Shown piece by piece: positions 41,933 to 49,426 of a DNA stretch of 64,000 nucleotides. The stretch lies in assembly GCF_022394535.1 (NCBI RefSeq), contig NZ_CP089414.1:2790001-2854000 (forward strand). The letters are read 5' to 3'. Origin of the DNA: Dyella terrae. Lineage in GTDB: Bacteria > Pseudomonadota > Gammaproteobacteria > Xanthomonadales > Rhodanobacteraceae. The translations under genes and the position numbers were made by a program. Within the stretch, counting starts at the first letter, position 1. The number at the start of each line of letters is the position of its first letter. A model generated the notes under the pieces. It was given only the letters and a program-made list of their open reading frames with translations, made no database searches and was not told where the DNA came from.

Positions 41933-42535
41933 ATGAGCGAGCGTCACGAACCGACCGAAGTCACCCGCGAACAGGCCGAGGAGGCCGTGCGCGTCCTGCT
42001 GCGCTGGTCGGGCGAAGACCCCAGCCGGGAAGGCCTGCTCGACACGCCCAAGCGCGTGGTGAAGGCCTATAAGGACTGGTTCTCCGGTTACACCACCGAC
42101 CCGGGTGAGTATCTGCGCCGTACCTTCGAGGAAGTGGCCGGTTACGACGAAATGGTCGTGCTGCGCGACATCGAGTTCGAAAGCCACTGCGAGCACCACA
42201 TGGCGCCGATCATCGGCCGCGCGCACGTCGGCTACCTGCCGACCAACCGTGTGGTGGGCATCAGCAAGCTGGCCCGCGTGGTGGACGCTTATGCGCGCCG
42301 CTTCCAGGTACAGGAAAAGCTGACCGCGCAGATCGCGCAGTGCATTCAGGACAACCTGCACCCGGCCGGCGTGGCGGTGGTGATCGATGCCAGCCACGAA
42401 TGCATGACCACGCGTGGCGTGCACAAGCGCGGCGTGTCGATGATCACCAGCCAGATGCTGGGCGCGTTCCGCGATGACGCGCGCACGCGCTCGGAGTTTC
42501 TGCAGTTCATCGGCATCCACGGCGCGGGCCGTTGA
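41933..42535 (+). CDS. folE: GTP cyclohydrolase I
   Basis: The 200-residue protein has the expected length. Zinc ligands are visible as Cys86 and His89 in [20 protein letters not shown] and Cys157 in [20 protein letters not shown], which also contains substrate-binding residues. It makes dihydroneopterin triphosphate from GTP, the first step of folate and pterin synthesis. GGAAC precedes the ATG. Its TGA overlaps the ATG of the next gene, tying it to the SMC-complex genes, an unexpected pairing that may only reflect shared expression. Confidence 0.96.
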
Positions 42536-43836
42536 TGCAGGGACTGGAAGGTACCGACGCCGACGAGCGTCTGCAGGACGTACTACGTGAAGGCATCACC
42601 GCCGAGGATCTCCCGGCGGTGTTTCCGTTGTTGCGCGGCCGCTCGCTGCTGCGCGCCTTCAGTGCGCTATTCCATGGCAGCGAAACCCAGGTCGTGCTGC
42701 GCCTGCTGGTGTTGCGCACGCTGGGCGCACGCGCGCATGCGCCGGAATGGACACCTGCGGAAATCCGCGACCAACTCGCCTTTGTCGAGCCGGTGAAGCT
42801 GGAAACCGTGGTGCAGCGCCTGAAGGAACACGAGCTGCTCACCTGGGACAACGAGACGCTGCGCTATCGCGTGAGCCCGTTGGGCCGCAAGGCGCTGGCC
42901 GCCGTGTCCACGCTGCTGGAATTCGAGCGCGACGACGAGGATGGCCTGGGCTATATCACCGCGCAGCTTGCCGCGGGCCAGGCGGTGGGACGCATTTCCG
43001 CCGATGAGCTCGGGCACTTGCTGTCGCGCCTGTCGGAGCTGAAGGAAGATTTCGACCGCGCCGTGCTATCCGGCTCCGAGCACCGCATCCGACGCGCCGC
43101 CCAACGGCTCGATGCGGTGTGGACGTGGGTGGAGAAAGGCACGGAAGTGGTCAGCGCCATCGCCGACAGCGAGGACATCGATCCGGCCACGCATCGGCTC
43201 GCGCAGGCCGTGGGTCGCGCGCAGAGCTCGCTGCTGCGACAGGCTGGCGTGTTCCAGCGCGAGCTCAACAAGATCGACCAGCATCGCGTGCATCTGGGGC
43301 GTACGGGCCTGTCGTCGTCCGACCTCGTCGCGTGGCTGCGCTCGCTCACACCGGACGCGCTGGCCCAACATGCGGACGAAGCGGCGCAGTTGCCTGTGCA
43401 GCCGCCCTTTCTGCTGGATCAGATTGCACTGGATGTGGCCGAGTACGAATTGCTGGAGCGCGAGCGTGCTGCTGCTGAAAACACCGCACTGCCGGATGCC
43501 GAAAGCAACCCGACCACCCATGACCTACCCATCGATGAAGAAGATCTCTCGCCGCTGCTGACATGGCACAGCGAGCTGGCCGCATTGGTCCAACCGATGG
43601 AACTCAGCGATGCGTTGCGCGGCGACGATTACGCGTTGAGCGCGTACCGACTCTCGCTGCTCGGGCTCGTCGGTGATCCGGAATCCTCGGCGCTGCAAGG
43701 CCCTACCGCCGATCTCGCGCGCCTACCGTTGAAGCTGGAAATCGAACCACGCCTGATCGATCCAGGCCTGGCGTCGATCGCGCTGGTAAGCGCGGGACGC
43801 CTGCACCCAAGGAGCCTGCCCGATGCTTCCACGTAA
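42535..43836 (+). CDS. Kleisin-like subunit of an SMC complex (MksF/JetA-like), tentative
   Basis: The ATG at 42535 overlaps the folE stop (TGATG); 433 residues. An N-terminal winged-helix-like part is visible at about 60-125 (TPAEIRDQLAFVEPVKLETV, then VQRLKEHELLTW, then YRVSPLGRKAL). A long helical middle part with few prolines follows (LLSRLSELKEDFDRAVLSGS, RAQSSLLRQAGVFQRELNKI), then a wordy acidic linker and a short C-terminal domain. This build and the place ahead of a KITE-like and an SMC-like gene point to a MukF/MksF-type kleisin. I infer this from architecture and order; no single motif proves it. Confidence 0.65.
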   Translation: MQGLEGTDADERLQDVLREGITAEDLPAVFPLLRGRSLLRAFSALFHGSETQVVLRLLVLRTLGARAHAPEWTPAEIRDQLAFVEPVKLETVVQRLKEHELLTWDNETLRYRVSPLGRKALAAVSTLLEFERDDEDGLGYITAQLAAGQAVGRISADELGHLLSRLSELKEDFDRAVLSGSEHRIRRAAQRLDAVWTWVEKGTEVVSAIADSEDIDPATHRLAQAVGRAQSSLLRQAGVFQRELNKIDQHRVHLGRTGLSSSDLVAWLRSLTPDALAQHADEAAQLPVQPPFLLDQIALDVAEYELLERERAAAENTALPDAESNPTTHDLPIDEEDLSPLLTWHSELAALVQPMELSDALRGDDYALSAYRLSLLGLVGDPESSALQGPTADLARLPLKLEIEPRLIDPGLASIALVSAGRLHPRSLPDAST

Positions 43837-43842
43837 CCCGCG

Positions 43843-43941
43843 TTGTCCACCAGTGGCCGCCAGAGTGGGAGGTGCGGCACCGCGCCTGACTGGTGGTCAG
43901 GTCAAGCCGCGCGTCACGCTCTGGCGGCCACTGGTGGACAA
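43843..43941. repeat. Long inverted repeat inside the SMC operon
   Basis: The arms 43843-43865 and 43919-43941 are perfectly complementary over 23 bp. Between them a second stem-loop is centred on CCTGAC-TGGTG-GTCAGG (43885-43901), flanked by a GCGGC/GCCGC pair (43874-43878 with 43906-43910). It starts seven bases after the kleisin-like stop and about 150 bases before the next start. In RNA it would be a very stable hairpin between the first and second gene. No T-run follows, so it is not a standard terminator. Confidence 0.85.
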
Positions 43942-44094
43942 CCCTTCGGGCCGGGGCTGCTTGCACGCAGGCCTGCGTCATCACTCAGTCGTGTATCGAC
44001 ATACACTCCTTCGCTCTTCCTTGACCCGCGCGCAAGCAGCTCCCGGCGCGGGTCACGTGGAAGCGTCGGGCAGGCTCTAAGGAAAAAACCACTG

Positions 44095-44826
44095 ATGCAT
44101 GACGAAACCGCCGCGCTCGTCGCGCGCCTGCTCTCACAACGCTGGCTGCCGCGCCACGACACACAGGCGCGCAAAGCGCTGCTCGACGAAGCGTTCCGCG
44201 AAGAACTTGATCGCCGCCTCGCGGCCGTGGGGCTGGAACTGCGCGAGCACCCCTATTCGGCTTATATCGGCGTGGCCGTGGCGCGCGCCAACGAAAAACA
44301 CGTGTTCGGCGGCAGCGACAGCTGGATCTCCAATACGCTGCAGTTGGACCGTGATGCTGTCGCGTTGCTGGTGGTGCTATGGGCGCTGATCGTGCTGCCC
44401 AAGCGCCAGCGCCAGCTCGAACGCCAGCAGGCCGAGGCCGATGCATCGCAGACGCTGATGTTCGCCGAGGGCAAGCCGATCTCGCGCGATGCCTCGCTAT
44501 CACCCATCGTGGCCGAGCGCACCTTGCTCGCCGACTTCGGCGACAGGCTGGGTGGCAAGACCCGCGTCAACTTCAACCTGGGCCTGCTTTCCCGCCATGG
44601 CTTTATCGCGCGCCGCAAGGGCGAACTGGCCGAAGGCCCCTTGCTCGATCTCGTCTTCGATTACGAGCGCACGGCGCGACGCATCCTCGATGGCGCGCTG
44701 AGCGACCTGCTCGCCGGGCTTACACCACGCGACGATATCGGCTCCGATGACGAACCGCTTTATGACGACACCGACGACGACGTGAATGAAATCAGCGAAG
44801 ACAGCGAAGTGATCCACGATGTTTGA
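44095..44826 (+). CDS. KITE-like winged-helix subunit of an SMC complex (MksE/JetB-like), tentative
   Basis: The ATG at 44095 follows AAGGA and gives 243 residues; the frame continues upstream across the inverted repeat but has no good start there. It has a helical N-terminus (ETAALVARLLSQRWLPRHDT), a beta-like strand pair (VGLELREHPYSAYIGVAVAR), a hydrophobic helix (DRDAVALLVVLWALIVLPKR) and a winged-helix end (VNFNLGLLSRHGFIARRKGE), then an Asp-rich tail. This matches the general pattern of MksE/JetB (DUF4194-like) proteins that bind the kleisin. It overlaps the SMC gene by eight bases, a strong sign of coupled translation. Confidence 0.65.
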   Translation: MHDETAALVARLLSQRWLPRHDTQARKALLDEAFREELDRRLAAVGLELREHPYSAYIGVAVARANEKHVFGGSDSWISNTLQLDRDAVALLVVLWALIVLPKRQRQLERQQAEADASQTLMFAEGKPISRDASLSPIVAERTLLADFGDRLGGKTRVNFNLGLLSRHGFIARRKGELAEGPLLDLVFDYERTARRILDGALSDLLAGLTPRDDIGSDDEPLYDDTDDDVNEISEDSEVIHDV

Positions 44827-47611
44827 TTTCCGTAGCCTCGAAGTCATCCACTGGGACTACTGGCAGCGCTTCAGCCTGCCGCTGGATACCAACATCGTCA
44901 CCGTGGTCGGCCCCAACGGCTCGGGCAAAACCACCCTGCTCGATGCGCTGCGCACCTTGCTCACCATCGACTGTGCAGGCAACCGCGACTACAAGAGCTA
45001 TCTGCGCCACAACGGCAAGCCATTCGCCTGGTTGCGCGCCCGCGTGGGCAACATACCGGGGCCGCGCGGCGAGCGTCCGTTCTTCCCGATCATGGACAGC
45101 GAAGTGACGCTGGCTGTGCGTATTCAGAAGAAAGGCGGCGAATGGCAGCGCCAATACGTCGTGATGGGCGGCGACGTCAGCGTGGACGAGATCGAAGCGC
45201 GCAACGACTTCATGGGCCTGCGCGAATACCGCGTGCGACTGGAAGGCGCGGGCCTCTCGCAGGCGATCCGCCGTGTGCTGACCCTGGAACAAGGCGCCAC
45301 CGACAAACTTTGCCAGTTGCCGCCCAAGTCGCTGCTGGATCTTGTTTTCGACGTCTTCGGCGACAAGGTCGTGCTGGAAGACTATCAGCGCGCACGCAAT
45401 GAACAAGCCGAAGCGGACCGCGAACTGCACGGGCTCGAACACCAGCTATCGCTGATTGGCGTGAGCCTGCAGGAAGCCGAAGGTCGCGTGCGCTCCTGGC
45501 AGGAGTGGGATGCGCTCAAGCACGAGCACACCGATCTCGTCGCTGAAACATTGCCACGCACCGAGCTGGCGGAACTGCACAACGCCATCCGTGGCGCGCG
45601 GCCGCAGTTGCTCGGCCTCAAGCGCAAGTGTCGCGATCTTTCCGCGCGCGACGTGGAACTGCAGCTGGGGCTGCAAACGCTCGATGCAGGCGAGGAATCA
45701 CTGCGCGGCGAACAGCACATCGCGGACCAGTCCCGCCAGCAGGCCAAGCAGCAGCTGGACGAAGCACGCCGCGCCGAAACCGAGAACGCCACCCTGCTCA
45801 AGCAGGAAGCGCATCTGCGCAAGCTGGTCGCCGAACAGGACGGTGCCGACCACGAAAAGCAGGGTAAGCAATTGGTCGAGGCACGCAGCCAGCTTGGCCG
45901 CCTGCAGAACGAGGAGGGCCGCCTGCGCGAGCAGCTATCCACGCTCACGGCGCAGTTGGGCGCGTGGCGCCGGGGTCAGCGCTACACACCGGAGTTCGAG
46001 CAATCGTTCCGCCGCGCGCTGGACGATGCAAGCATCGGCCATAGCATGCTGAGCGAGATCGTGGAGATCACGGAGCCGCGTTGGCAGGCCGCCGTGGAAG
46101 CGGTGCTGGCGGGTTATCGACACGTGGTGCTGCTGGATCACCCGCGCGATCGTGAAGCGGCATGGCGGCTGGGCGAACAACATCGCTACAAGCACTTCGT
46201 CGTCGCCGAGCGCGCGCCGACTGCATCGCCCACGCGTGGCTCCCTGCTGGAAGTGGTCGACTTCACCGCGCCAGCGCCGGAATGGCTGCTACGCCAGCTC
46301 GATCGCATCCGCCGCGTCGAGGACGTGGCCGATGGCGCGAAGCTGGGCAAAGAGCAGGACTGGATCACGCCGCAGGGCTATTTCCGCGAGCGTCGCGGCG
46401 GCCGCCACCTGGGTGTGGACGACGTCTACTTCGGCAGCGCCGCCCGCGAGCGTCAGCTGCGCGAGGGCGAAGACCGCCTGCAGCAGATCGAGAAACAGCT
46501 GCGCGCCATCGGCGACAAGCGCAAGACTTATCAGGAACAGGCCAGCGACGCGGAAAGCCTGCTGCGCGGTGCCAACGCCAGCGGCCAGTTGGCCGACCGC
46601 GCCGATGAATTCGCCGTCGCGCACGAAGCACAGGCTGCCCTGCAGGATGACGTGCAACGCTGTGCTGACAGCTACGCCGCCGCCGAAGCGCACTACGAAT
46701 CGATGCGCGAGAAGCGTCAGCTGAATTCTCGCCAGCGCGATAACGAAGCGCGCGAACACCGGCAGGCACAGCAGCAACTCGCCGATACCGCACGTCAGTT
46801 CACGCAGGCACGCAACGAACAGATCGACCGTCTCAAGGCTTTCCGCCACAAGCGCAGCCACGTGCGTCCTGCCCACCGCACACGCCACGCCATGACGGAG
46901 CTGCGCGAGCGCTATGAATCGCCCGCCGCTGCCCGTCGCGAGATCGATCGCATCGAGCGCCGCCTCAACGAGGGCCACTGGGAAACCGATGACGGCGTGC
47001 TGCCTTTGCGCGACAAGTACGCCAACGACCACGGCGGCCTCAAGGAAGATCTGCAGCGTCGCCGCGTACACCTGGAGCGTGCAGGGCGCATCACCAGCGA
47101 AGCGCGTGGGGCCTACCTCAACGTGCTGCGCAATACGGTGAAACGCTACGCGCGCAACCTGAAGGTGCTGGCGGACCTTGCCGGCATCGGCGTGGAAGTG
47201 GAGCTGCCGGAACTGTCGAACGAAGACCTCGCGCTGGCACAGGCCGGCCTCAACGTGCGCTTCGAGTTCGACAAGAAGGGCTGGATCGGCATGGACGACG
47301 GCGAGGCGTCGGGTGGTCAGCAGGTGATGAAGTCGCTGCTGTTGTTGGTGGCGTTGATGCGCGACGAGGACCGCCCCGGCGGCTTCGTGTTCATTGATGA
47401 ACCGTTCGCGCACCTGGATATCTTCAACATCGACAAGGTGGGTGCCTTCCTCAAGTCCACCCGCGCCCAGTACATTCTGACCACCCCGGCCACGCACAAC
47501 ATCAACGTGTTCCAGCCCAGCGATCTGACCCTTGTTACCAGCAAGCGCCGCCCTGGCGCGACCTGGGCGCAACCCCTGGCCGTTCTGCGTCGCCGGACCG
47601 AAGCCGCATGA
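44819..47611 (+). CDS. SMC-like ATPase with hinge (MksB/JetC-like)
   Basis: The 930-residue protein has a Walker A motif, VVGPNGSGKTTLLDAL (31-38), a long coiled coil (about 170-385) and a globular hinge at about 390-540 (SEIVEITEPRWQAAVEAVLA, GYRHVVLLDHPRDREAAWRL). A second coiled coil follows, then the C-terminal head with signature ASGGQQVMKSLLLLVALM and Walker B GGFVFIDEPFAHLD. There is no CxxC zinc hook, so it is not SbcC/Rad50. The coils are short: MksB and JetC are usually over 1,000 residues. With the two upstream genes it forms a condensin-like complex; a nuclease partner is not present. Confidence 0.85.
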   Translation: MFDFRSLEVIHWDYWQRFSLPLDTNIVTVVGPNGSGKTTLLDALRTLLTIDCAGNRDYKSYLRHNGKPFAWLRARVGNIPGPRGERPFFPIMDSEVTLAVRIQKKGGEWQRQYVVMGGDVSVDEIEARNDFMGLREYRVRLEGAGLSQAIRRVLTLEQGATDKLCQLPPKSLLDLVFDVFGDKVVLEDYQRARNEQAEADRELHGLEHQLSLIGVSLQEAEGRVRSWQEWDALKHEHTDLVAETLPRTELAELHNAIRGARPQLLGLKRKCRDLSARDVELQLGLQTLDAGEESLRGEQHIADQSRQQAKQQLDEARRAETENATLLKQEAHLRKLVAEQDGADHEKQGKQLVEARSQLGRLQNEEGRLREQLSTLTAQLGAWRRGQRYTPEFEQSFRRALDDASIGHSMLSEIVEITEPRWQAAVEAVLAGYRHVVLLDHPRDREAAWRLGEQHRYKHFVVAERAPTASPTRGSLLEVVDFTAPAPEWLLRQLDRIRRVEDVADGAKLGKEQDWITPQGYFRERRGGRHLGVDDVYFGSAARERQLREGEDRLQQIEKQLRAIGDKRKTYQEQASDAESLLRGANASGQLADRADEFAVAHEAQAALQDDVQRCADSYAAAEAHYESMREKRQLNSRQRDNEAREHRQAQQQLADTARQFTQARNEQIDRLKAFRHKRSHVRPAHRTRHAMTELRERYESPAAARREIDRIERRLNEGHWETDDGVLPLRDKYANDHGGLKEDLQRRRVHLERAGRITSEARGAYLNVLRNTVKRYARNLKVLADLAGIGVEVELPELSNEDLALAQAGLNVRFEFDKKGWIGMDDGEASGGQQVMKSLLLLVALMRDEDRPGGFVFIDEPFAHLDIFNIDKVGAFLKSTRAQYILTTPATHNINVFQPSDLTLVTSKRRPGATWAQPLAVLRRRTEAA

Positions 47612-47970
47612 TCGTGCGCCGGCCCATCCCTGCCTCCCTACGGGCGGGTGTGACGCTGGCCGGCCTGCTGCTTGCGCCCCTGCTTGCATGGGCGCAAGCC
47701 ACCCCCGCCGAGTACCTGCGCGAGTTCGATACCGATGGTGACGGCCGGGTCAGTGAGGCGGAGTACGTGGCCCACCTGAGCGAAGGTTTCCATCATCTCG
47801 ACCGCAATGGCGATGGTGTACTGGAAGCTGACGAGTTGCCCGGCGGGCATGGCAAACCGATCACCCTCAAGCAGTTTCAGGACAACCTGCGCCGGCAATT
47901 CCACAAGCTGGACCGCAATCACGACGGTTACCTGGACGCGCGCGAACTGACGCAGCCACCGCAGAGCTGA
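47608..47970 (+). CDS. Exported EF-hand calcium-binding protein
   Basis: The 120-residue protein has a signal peptide (LRAGVTLAGLLLAPLLAWAQA, a little after the start) and three canonical EF-hand loops: DTDGDGRVSEAE, DRNGDGVLEADE and DRNHDGYLDARE. Each has Asp or Asn at positions 1, 3 and 5 and Glu at 12. It is expected in the periplasm, binding calcium. Its ATG overlaps the SMC stop by four bases. A functional tie to a cytoplasmic SMC complex is hard to see, so the coupling may be chance or for expression only. Confidence 0.88.
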   Translation: MIVRRPIPASLRAGVTLAGLLLAPLLAWAQATPAEYLREFDTDGDGRVSEAEYVAHLSEGFHHLDRNGDGVLEADELPGGHGKPITLKQFQDNLRRQFHKLDRNHDGYLDARELTQPPQS

Positions 47971-48076
47971 CGGCTCGTCCCAGCGCGCTCCAAGGGGCGC
48001 CCGCCCGTCTTCCGCACTGCACACACAACGTCACCTGCGATCGGCTATCGTGCGCCTCTTGCCGTCGGTCACGTCC

Positions 48077-49426
48077 ATGGATCAGACAACCCAACCCGAG
48101 CTCCATCCCCGTCGCCGAGCCGCCTTGGCGTTCATCTTCGTTACCGTCGTGCTGGACATGCTGGCATTCGGGATTGTCATCCCGGTGTTGCCGCACCTGA
48201 TCGAGCAACTCGCCGGTGGCGGCATCTCCAACGCGGCATGGTGGGTGGGGGTGTTCAGCACGGTGTTCGCCATCGTGCAGTTCGCTTTCTCGCCGATACA
48301 AGGGGCACTGTCCGACCGCTTCGGCCGCCGGCCGGTGATCCTGATTTCCAACGCGGGGCTTGCGATCGATTTCTTCGTGCTGGCTCTGGCACCGACGCTG
48401 TGGTTGCTGTTTGTCGCCCGCGTGGTGCTGGGTATGACGGCGGCGAGCTTCACCACCGCGAATGCGTACATCGCGGACATCACGCCCAAGGAAAAGCGCG
48501 CAGCGGCCTACGGCATCCTCGGCAGCGCCTTCGGCCTGGGTTTCATCATCGGCCCCGGTCTTGGCGGTCTCCTTGGTGACATCCATCTGCGCCTGCCGTT
48601 CTGGGTGGCGGGTGGACTGGCGGCGTGCAATTTCCTGTATGGCCTGTTCGTGCTGCCGGAGTCCCTGCCCAAGGAACGCCGTACGCCGAAGTTCGAGATC
48701 CACAGCGCGCATCCGCTGGGTTCGCTCAAACTGCTCATGCGCTATCCACTCGTGCTGCGGCTGGCGGTGGTGATGTTCCTGGTGTTTCTGTCGCACTACG
48801 TGTTGCAGACCACTTTTGTGCTGTACGCGGACTACCGCTACCAGTGGGGTCCACGCGCCGTGGGCTACGTGCTGATGCTGGTGGGTGCCTGCGATGGCCT
48901 GGTGCAGGCGGTGCTCACACGCAAGCTCGCACCCATTTTCGGCGAACGTCGCTTGATGCTGGGCGGCATGGTGTTTGGCATCGGCTCGTTCCTGGTGATG
49001 GGTCTGGCCAACACCGGAGGGGTGTTCCTGCTGGGCATCCCGCTGATGGCGCTATGGGGGCTGTCGCAGCCACCCATCCAATCGCTGATGACGCACGAGG
49101 TGGATCCACACGAACAAGGCCGCCTGCAGGGCGCGATTGCCAGCTTGCAGAGCTTCGCGGGCATCTTTGGCCCGTTCCTGTTCGCGCAGGTGTTCTCGTT
49201 CTCGATCTCGCCGGCCTCGCCGTTCCATCTGCCGGGACTGGCTTTCGTACTGTCCGCCGTGCTGCTTGCCATCGGCGCGTACATCGCCATGCGCGCGACA
49301 CGACAGGTGCAAGACCTCGCCAGGGCCGACGCGCCCGTGCCGAACACCATTCCGGGTGAACCGTCCTCGGTCGTCCCATTGCAAGCTGCCATCACCCCCA
49401 CCGAACCACCGGAGCAATCCCCATGA
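48077..49426 (+). CDS. MFS drug-type transporter (TCR/Tet family)
   Basis: The ATG at 48077 gives 449 residues and twelve membrane helices. It has the DHA1/TCR pattern: FVTVVLDMLAFGIVIPVLPH in helix 1, GALSDRFGRRPVILISNAGL as motif A, and LGSAFGLGFIIGPGLGGLLG as motif C of antiporters. The family includes tetracycline exporters, but most chromosomal members have other or unknown substrates, so resistance should not be assumed. Its stop overlaps the DUF1993 start by four bases. Confidence 0.87.
   Translation: MDQTTQPELHPRRRAALAFIFVTVVLDMLAFGIVIPVLPHLIEQLAGGGISNAAWWVGVFSTVFAIVQFAFSPIQGALSDRFGRRPVILISNAGLAIDFFVLALAPTLWLLFVARVVLGMTAASFTTANAYIADITPKEKRAAAYGILGSAFGLGFIIGPGLGGLLGDIHLRLPFWVAGGLAACNFLYGLFVLPESLPKERRTPKFEIHSAHPLGSLKLLMRYPLVLRLAVVMFLVFLSHYVLQTTFVLYADYRYQWGPRAVGYVLMLVGACDGLVQAVLTRKLAPIFGERRLMLGGMVFGIGSFLVMGLANTGGVFLLGIPLMALWGLSQPPIQSLMTHEVDPHEQGRLQGAIASLQSFAGIFGPFLFAQVFSFSISPASPFHLPGLAFVLSAVLLAIGAYIAMRATRQVQDLARADAPVPNTIPGEPSSVVPLQAAITPTEPPEQSP

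Follow-up and report, generated by a model that had tools for sequence, protein, structure and literature searches.

In a stretch of 64,000 nucleotides from Dyella terrae (contig NZ_CP089414.1, positions 2,790,001 to 2,854,000; the whole stretch is called the window below), three adjacent genes, here named A, B and C, encode a kleisin-like protein, a KITE (kleisin-interacting tandem winged-helix element) protein and an SMC (structural maintenance of chromosomes) ATPase. In a minority of relatives a fourth gene, D, which encodes a JetD-type nuclease, lies directly after C. Comparison of the window with these relatives makes it probable that the locus is what remains of a divergent Wadjet/MksBEFG-like system, its kleisin-KITE-SMC core, after loss of the JetD-type nuclease, and that it would now act on the chromosome as a condensin. 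The features of the locus are as follows.

41933..42535, + strand: folE, GTP cyclohydrolase I (Pfam GTP_cyclohydroI, 6.7e-75); context, outside the system
42535..43836, + strand: A, kleisin-like protein of 433 residues, in the position of JetA/MksF/MukF
43812..44077, no strand: nested inverted-repeat element, like a miniature inverted-repeat transposable element or a repetitive extragenic palindrome, with arms of 31, 37 and 19 nucleotides
44095..44826, + strand: B, KITE protein of 243 residues with an acidic tail, in the position of JetB/MksE/MukE
44819..47611, + strand: C, SMC ATPase of 930 residues, in the position of JetC/MksB/MukB (SMC_N, 2.2e-15)
47608..47970, + strand: EF-hand protein with a signal-like N-terminus (EF-hand families, best 6.1e-16)
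48050..49426, + strand: major facilitator superfamily (MFS) transporter, a syntenic marker (MFS_1, 1.8e-52)

Layout of the operon and its three proteins

As the initial annotation had proposed, the kleisin-like, KITE and SMC genes are present as three open reading frames on the + strand in the order F-E-B, that is, in the mksF-mksE-mksB order of MksBEF without mksG. A lies upstream of C at 95 of 97 loci, the remaining two ending at contig ends, and the closest homologue of A, from Dyella sp. AD56, is 99% identical. The ATG of A shares one base with the stop codon of folE, B and C overlap by 8 nucleotides, and the start of the EF-hand gene, which occupies the site held by D in relatives, overlaps the stop codon of C by 4 nucleotides.

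The tight spacing first described for the three genes holds for B-C and for the family, in which A and B lie less than 60 nucleotides apart at 100 of the 105 loci measured by script, and overlap at 90. It does not hold for A-B in the window, where the gap is 258 nucleotides because a nested inverted-repeat element of about 266 base pairs was inserted. Elsewhere in the genome the element has 21 matches, at 20 places and with 72-87% identity. At this locus the final residues of A, which it replaces, and the stop codon of A both come from the element. It is absent from the A-B site in L063, a locus from a close Dyella neighbour, and in 8 other Dyella compared, in all of which A runs directly into B. 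The first in-frame start for B, at 43843, falls within the repeat; homologues begin at the methionine of 44095. Besides the window, four loci are exceptions in spacing: L097 and L102, together with L043 and L070, for which the script took the wrong B frame. The repeat at 43812-44077 may also form a strong hairpin in the transcript.

C matches SMC_N above the Pfam cut-off and the hinge family below it (0.0083), so that the 930-residue SMC with head motifs and hinge read from the letters alone is borne out, with the hinge as a sub-threshold match. The sole MukB match of C in Pfam, to the MukB N-terminal head, is likewise below cut-off (0.012), and the match to the PADLOC model JetC1 (1.7e-24) has its best stretch at residues 190-738, largely coiled coil. 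In its head motifs and hinge C is a JetC-like SMC of the kind that Wadjet systems have. C is conserved across the aligned relatives (alignment A1), and among 107 distinct relatives, the window included, the exact Walker A, signature and Walker B patterns were found in 106, 105 and 106, respectively. In the same 107 the SMC is 918-950 residues long, with a median of 933; the length of 930 residues therefore stands as given, but is not unusual for the family.

For the two smaller proteins, profile searches of the kind that had been proposed and predicted folds gave different answers. Sequence profiles of A and B found nothing convincing in the PDB, A of the window matched none of the PADLOC JetA models, A of 40 members matched no JetA-type Pfam family, and B scores below the DUF4194 cut-off. 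The predicted folds, on the other hand, agree with the assignments: the model of B matches JetB, the KITE subunit of Wadjet, and the best structural match for the model of A is MukF, a weaker match than that of B to JetB. When A and B were compared by hhalign with their counterparts JetA and JetB from the canonical Wadjet loci L196 and L198, no support was obtained, and the link to Wadjet thus rests on folds, gene order and D. The PADLOC models tried, which recognise the canonical Wadjet loci of two relatives, miss A and B of the window, so that the family is likely undercounted. The model of B aligns to JetB only from residue 42-48 onward. In the accessible part of PMC10586767, the N-terminal stretch of JetB is described as carrying an IFDR motif that contacts JetD; given that B is without this stretch, D would have to dock differently. 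The start position of B matches, within a few residues, in the 30 loci with and without D that were compared.

A JetD-type gene at the same site in relatives

In named genomes at least 525 relatives of C were matched, of which the best 80 were kept as loci; in all, 138 stretches, the window included, were reduced to 107 with distinct SMCs. The genus labels Dyella and Luteibacter are those of named records with identical SMCs. D, a gene product of about 400 residues, is encoded directly after C at 22 of the 107 distinct loci, and 85 are without it; because its named loci are the 80 best among at least 525 matches, this share applies to the sample and leans towards near kin. Eight of the 107 loci have only 1.5 kb of flank, in which D beside C would be visible and folE would not. 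The open frame of D starts ahead of the stop codon of C in 22 of 22 cases, that of L112 being cut by the contig end. Where a family is named, the D-bearing loci belong to Rhodanobacteraceae, Lysobacteraceae, Nevskiaceae, Chromobacteriaceae and further Betaproteobacteria. The system with D also occurs in a metagenome bin (L105) whose label, Bordetella parapertussis, is probably wrong. Among the loci with genus labels, D was found at 0 of 18 in Dyella and 4 of 20 in Luteibacter. L063 has the order folE-A-B-C-D-MFS, compared with folE-A-B-C-EF-hand-MFS in the window; its MFS homologue is 57% identical and lies 1406 nucleotides past the C stop codon.

The identity of D was judged by several comparisons. 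All 15 of the 15 aligned members match the PADLOC model JetD1 (best 4.1e-20), and 3 of 6 scanned match DUF2399, two of them over the cut-off. With hhalign, D was matched to one canonical JetD with probability 95, and comparison with another gave no support; the sequence profile of D found no solved structural relative. The alignment of D (A2) contains conserved acidic blocks, with N283, E288, D331 and D333 invariant, and the conserved acidic residues are TOPRIM-like. By these matches, D of the relatives belongs to JetD. In the family set, for which nine candidates per genome were scored, a full-length D (E below 1e-100) was found in 7 of 197 genomes, adjoining C, which in G988 is a fragment. 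Another 12 genomes of that set gave partial D matches only (E 8e-17 to 3e-11), which probably belong to other nucleases. In pairwise comparisons (Nei-Gojobori; dS, the synonymous distance, approaches or exceeds 1 in some pairs), the ratio of nonsynonymous to synonymous change (dN/dS) was 0.228-0.281 for D and 0.090-0.128 for C in the same four pairs of D-bearing Luteibacter loci (L036, L037, L169, L171). By these ratios, D evolves faster than the core.

The operon in the window, unlike that of Wadjet (JetABCD), encodes no JetD. Across the entire genome, a single contig of 5,355,565 bases that includes the window, there were no matches to the JetD_C profile and none to a profile of the family's own D, for which 55 of 55 candidates were scored. 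The claim that no nuclease follows is thus correct for the window, where the EF-hand gene and then the MFS gene come next, but it does not extend to the family. The initial annotation had reckoned with a nuclease encoded consistently beside orthologues as evidence against it; such a gene is present in the minority of relatives described above, L063 and the four Luteibacter loci among them. A complex that is nuclease-less by design can be dismissed, as relatives, including L063 at the same folE locus, carry the JetD-type gene. With D directly after C in a minority of relatives, the window locus reads as a case of nuclease loss. Elsewhere in the genome, JetD_C was matched in 3 of 18 C-bearing genomes (G135, G836 and G039). 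The JetD_C genes of these three lie in separate four-gene Wadjet-like loci, L196, L197 and L198, respectively, and in both of those scanned, G135 (L196) and G039 (L198), PADLOC recognised type I with JetA, JetB and JetD.

Retention of the core and the history of D

A-B-C lies at a fixed chromosomal place in Dyella and Luteibacter. C was found in 19 of 20 Dyella genomes, the single miss being 86% complete, and in 23 of 23 Luteibacter genomes, in one as a fragment and in one with an in-frame stop. In wider genome searches, C was found in 15 of 200 genomes of the order, 2 of 369 of the class set, 6 of 398 of the phylum set and 47 of 197 of the family. At E<=1e-20, C matched none of the 50,697 phage records and 2 of the 72,556 plasmid records, the latter over half of its length; carriage by mobile elements was set aside on these counts. 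The two plasmid records, NZ_LR594663.1 and NZ_LR594690.1, are large Variovorax plasmids, each encoding a distantly related SMC (39.5% across 53% of the query). Judged from these searches, the distribution is that of a resident gene and not of a mobile defence island.

That three core genes are intact suggests service to the cell's own chromosome. By analogy with MukBEF, MksBEF and Wadjet, C would dimerise at the hinge, A would bridge the heads and B would bind A; the core would still bind both ATP and DNA, with ATP driving loop extrusion. In Wadjet, according to the accessible part of PMC10586767, small circles are sensed by JetABC and cut by JetD. Without D, such a motor could only organise or move DNA, and the D-less core would then act in chromosome organisation or segregation beside the cell's own SMC-ScpAB. 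A canonical SMC frame of 1186 residues and ScpA are also encoded in the Dyella terrae genome, which would make A-B-C a second condensin. Loss of D may have been favoured because the cost of cutting useful plasmids was removed, and the core would have kept a second role, probably one already held while D was present. More tentatively, and with somewhat less than even confidence, we propose that conversion of an anti-plasmid SMC nuclease into a chromosome condensin has happened many times, within single genera and at a fixed locus, by deletion of one gene, JetD being an exchangeable, fast-evolving add-on. Repeated conversion at one locus would mean that the core already serves the chromosome in complexes that still have the nuclease.

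The alternative that survives best is that the operon still serves in plasmid defence, the core sensing small circles and recruiting a nuclease in trans, or silencing or missegregating plasmids without cutting them. The intact and conserved core subunits would suit this role, as would the presence of the nuclease in relatives and the patchiness of the SMC at the level of the order. We nevertheless regard it as unlikely, given that the genome has no match to JetD_C or D, that near-universal presence in Dyella and Luteibacter is unusual for a defence system, and that a survey consisting only of a positional check and six Pfam scans noticed no constant partner gene beside the core apart from D.

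The history of D was traced by several routes. On the SMC tree, which was quickly built and whose deep branches are unsure, the D state changes at least 13 times, and 11 of the changes are forced by well-supported (starred) branches. D and C tree distances for 21 loci are correlated with an r of 0.53, a value reached by 0 of 2000 permutations, and 10 of the 18 splits in the D tree are also in the C tree. In the D tree, the gene from L063 clusters with those from four Luteibacter loci (support 99/98), which fits the presence of D in the Dyella-Luteibacter ancestor. DNA alignments of D-bearing and D-less pairs end within about 35 nucleotides of the C stop codon in 11 of 11 pairs. The alignment resumes in 8 of the 11: within the last 11 nucleotides of D in two, at 12-182 nucleotides past D in five, and at 1.9 kb in one. 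In the three pairs without resumption, the available D-less stretch ends early. In a targeted relic test, six D-less loci were each compared with both D ends of one D-bearing relative, and 3 of the 12 comparisons fell below 20 of 1000 shuffles: two for L034, one at each end of D, and one for L046. In L034 the two short matches lie in the order expected from D, with 10 and 11 of 1000 shuffles as good. The L046 match was set aside, as it lies inside the EF-hand gene of that locus and is probably due to chance. A blastn-short relic search of the 85 D-less loci gave a best E of 0.096. With at least 13 changes of D, and D partly following the SMC tree, repeated loss of D with some exchange is the history that these comparisons favour.

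Several observations weigh against this history or against the explanation built on it. A loss-only history requires 38 losses, versus 13 changes when gains are allowed, and on the SMC tree gain and loss appear not to be fully separable. Eight of the 18 D-tree splits are missing from the C tree. D of L169 is nearest to that of L037, and its SMC is nearest to that of the D-less L035, which suggests that D was exchanged within Luteibacter. The SMC of L063 falls inside the Dyella SMCs, and L063 may have regained D; a Dyella clade without L063 was not rejected in the approximately unbiased (AU) test (p 0.0814). In the targeted comparison, no D relic was found in the window. The fold match of A is weak, none of its Foldseek rows reaching E<=0.001; the order-level patchiness is like that of defence systems; and L056, from a Luteibacter metagenome-assembled genome (probably G1105), has an in-frame TAG at SMC codon 613. 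L056 is the only SMC with such a stop, which may be an assembly error.

Some of these facts can also be read in the opposite direction, with the D-less state ancestral and a three-gene condensin having repeatedly gained a JetD-type nuclease, thereby becoming a defence system. D-less loci are the commoner, counts of fewest changes leave the direction unfixed, and D seems to have been exchanged within Luteibacter. D, however, is always in the same place, with its frame opening before the stop codon of C, and it largely clusters by host family; moreover, L034 retains matches to both ends of D. We therefore hold the gain of D by an ancestral condensin to be quite improbable, and retain repeated loss with some exchange.

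The core left behind shows the marks of selection. For seven D-less Dyella pairs, dN/dS was 0.045-0.118 for C, 0.075-0.154 for A and 0.055-0.253 for B; for two D-less Luteibacter pairs, the values for C were 0.058 and 0.044; and for the mixed pair of the window and L063 (D-less and D-bearing, respectively), C gave 0.131, A 0.189 and B 0.189. By these values, the D-less core is under purifying selection and is not decaying. That the D-less operon is a defence remnant in the course of being lost is very hard to credit: the nuclease is gone, in the window the repeat now separates A from B, L056 has its stop in C, and C was not seen in the one Dyella genome that is 86% complete, but the C ratios of the D-less Dyella pairs compare with 0.090-0.128 in the four D-bearing Luteibacter pairs, 106 of 107 SMC genes have no in-frame stop, and the core SMC is kept in all but one of the Dyella and Luteibacter genomes.

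The genes flanking the core vary. The coupling to folE that had been called unexpected exists in the window but is lineage-specific: folE lies directly 5' of A at 31 of 107 loci, comprising 30 from Dyella, L063 and Luteibacter with enough flank, plus L172. Five upstream neighbours in other lineages were an Obg GTPase, an aldehyde dehydrogenase, a polyprenyl synthetase, a TPR-type protein and one protein without a match. On this count we do not assign folE a lasting role. Functional coupling to the EF-hand gene was likewise set aside, as that gene lies directly after C at no more than 20 of the 107 loci, none of which has D.

Comparison with known systems

MukBEF is not known to have a nuclease. 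A-B-C resembles it in this respect and in the KITE and kleisin folds, MukF being the best structural match of A, and differs from it in the short SMC of 930 residues and in a genome that has a canonical SMC frame and ScpA as well. Wadjet type I (JetABCD), also MksBEFG or EptABCD, is like the present family in the order A-B-C(-D), in the JetB fold of B, in the JetD1 matches of D in relatives and in weak JetC1 matches. Unlike Wadjet type I, the window has a C of 930 residues, as compared with 1119 in the solved JetC chain, an A without a JetA match, a B that is below the DUF4194 cut-off and lacks the N-terminal stretch of JetB, and no D. Taking the nuclease as the criterion, A-B-C is not Wadjet and, as far as sequence comparison can tell, is a divergent branch.

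MksBEF of Pseudomonas aeruginosa is described, in the accessible part of PMC7485682, as an SMC-kleisin-KITE condensin that functions in chromosome segregation beside a separate canonical SMC; loss of MksB modestly raises the number of anucleate cells, with 16% when parB is deleted. The core in the window is also an SMC-kleisin-KITE set with a separate canonical SMC, a likeness of composition. Unlike P. aeruginosa MksBEF, the window family has D-bearing and D-less forms that coexist at one locus among close relatives, which allows a direct comparison of the two states.

Wadjet in Stenotrophomonas and Xylella is the subject of PMC11680222 and PMC9148166. We found no literature on Wadjet in Dyella, and no description of this A-B-C(-D) family in the titles and abstract openings covered. 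An origin of Pseudomonas MksBEF by loss of JetD was suggested in a review (PMC10586767, accessible part). What seems new is a family that displays the JetD-loss step many times among close relatives. Since these relatives share the locus but not the nuclease, it becomes testable whether the nuclease-less core organises the chromosome, and whether it does so already in the presence of the nuclease. The family thereby bears on how SMC complexes shift between genome maintenance and immunity. In sum, by analogy with these systems, A-B-C would work like MksBEF, and would descend from, or together with, a Wadjet-like system.

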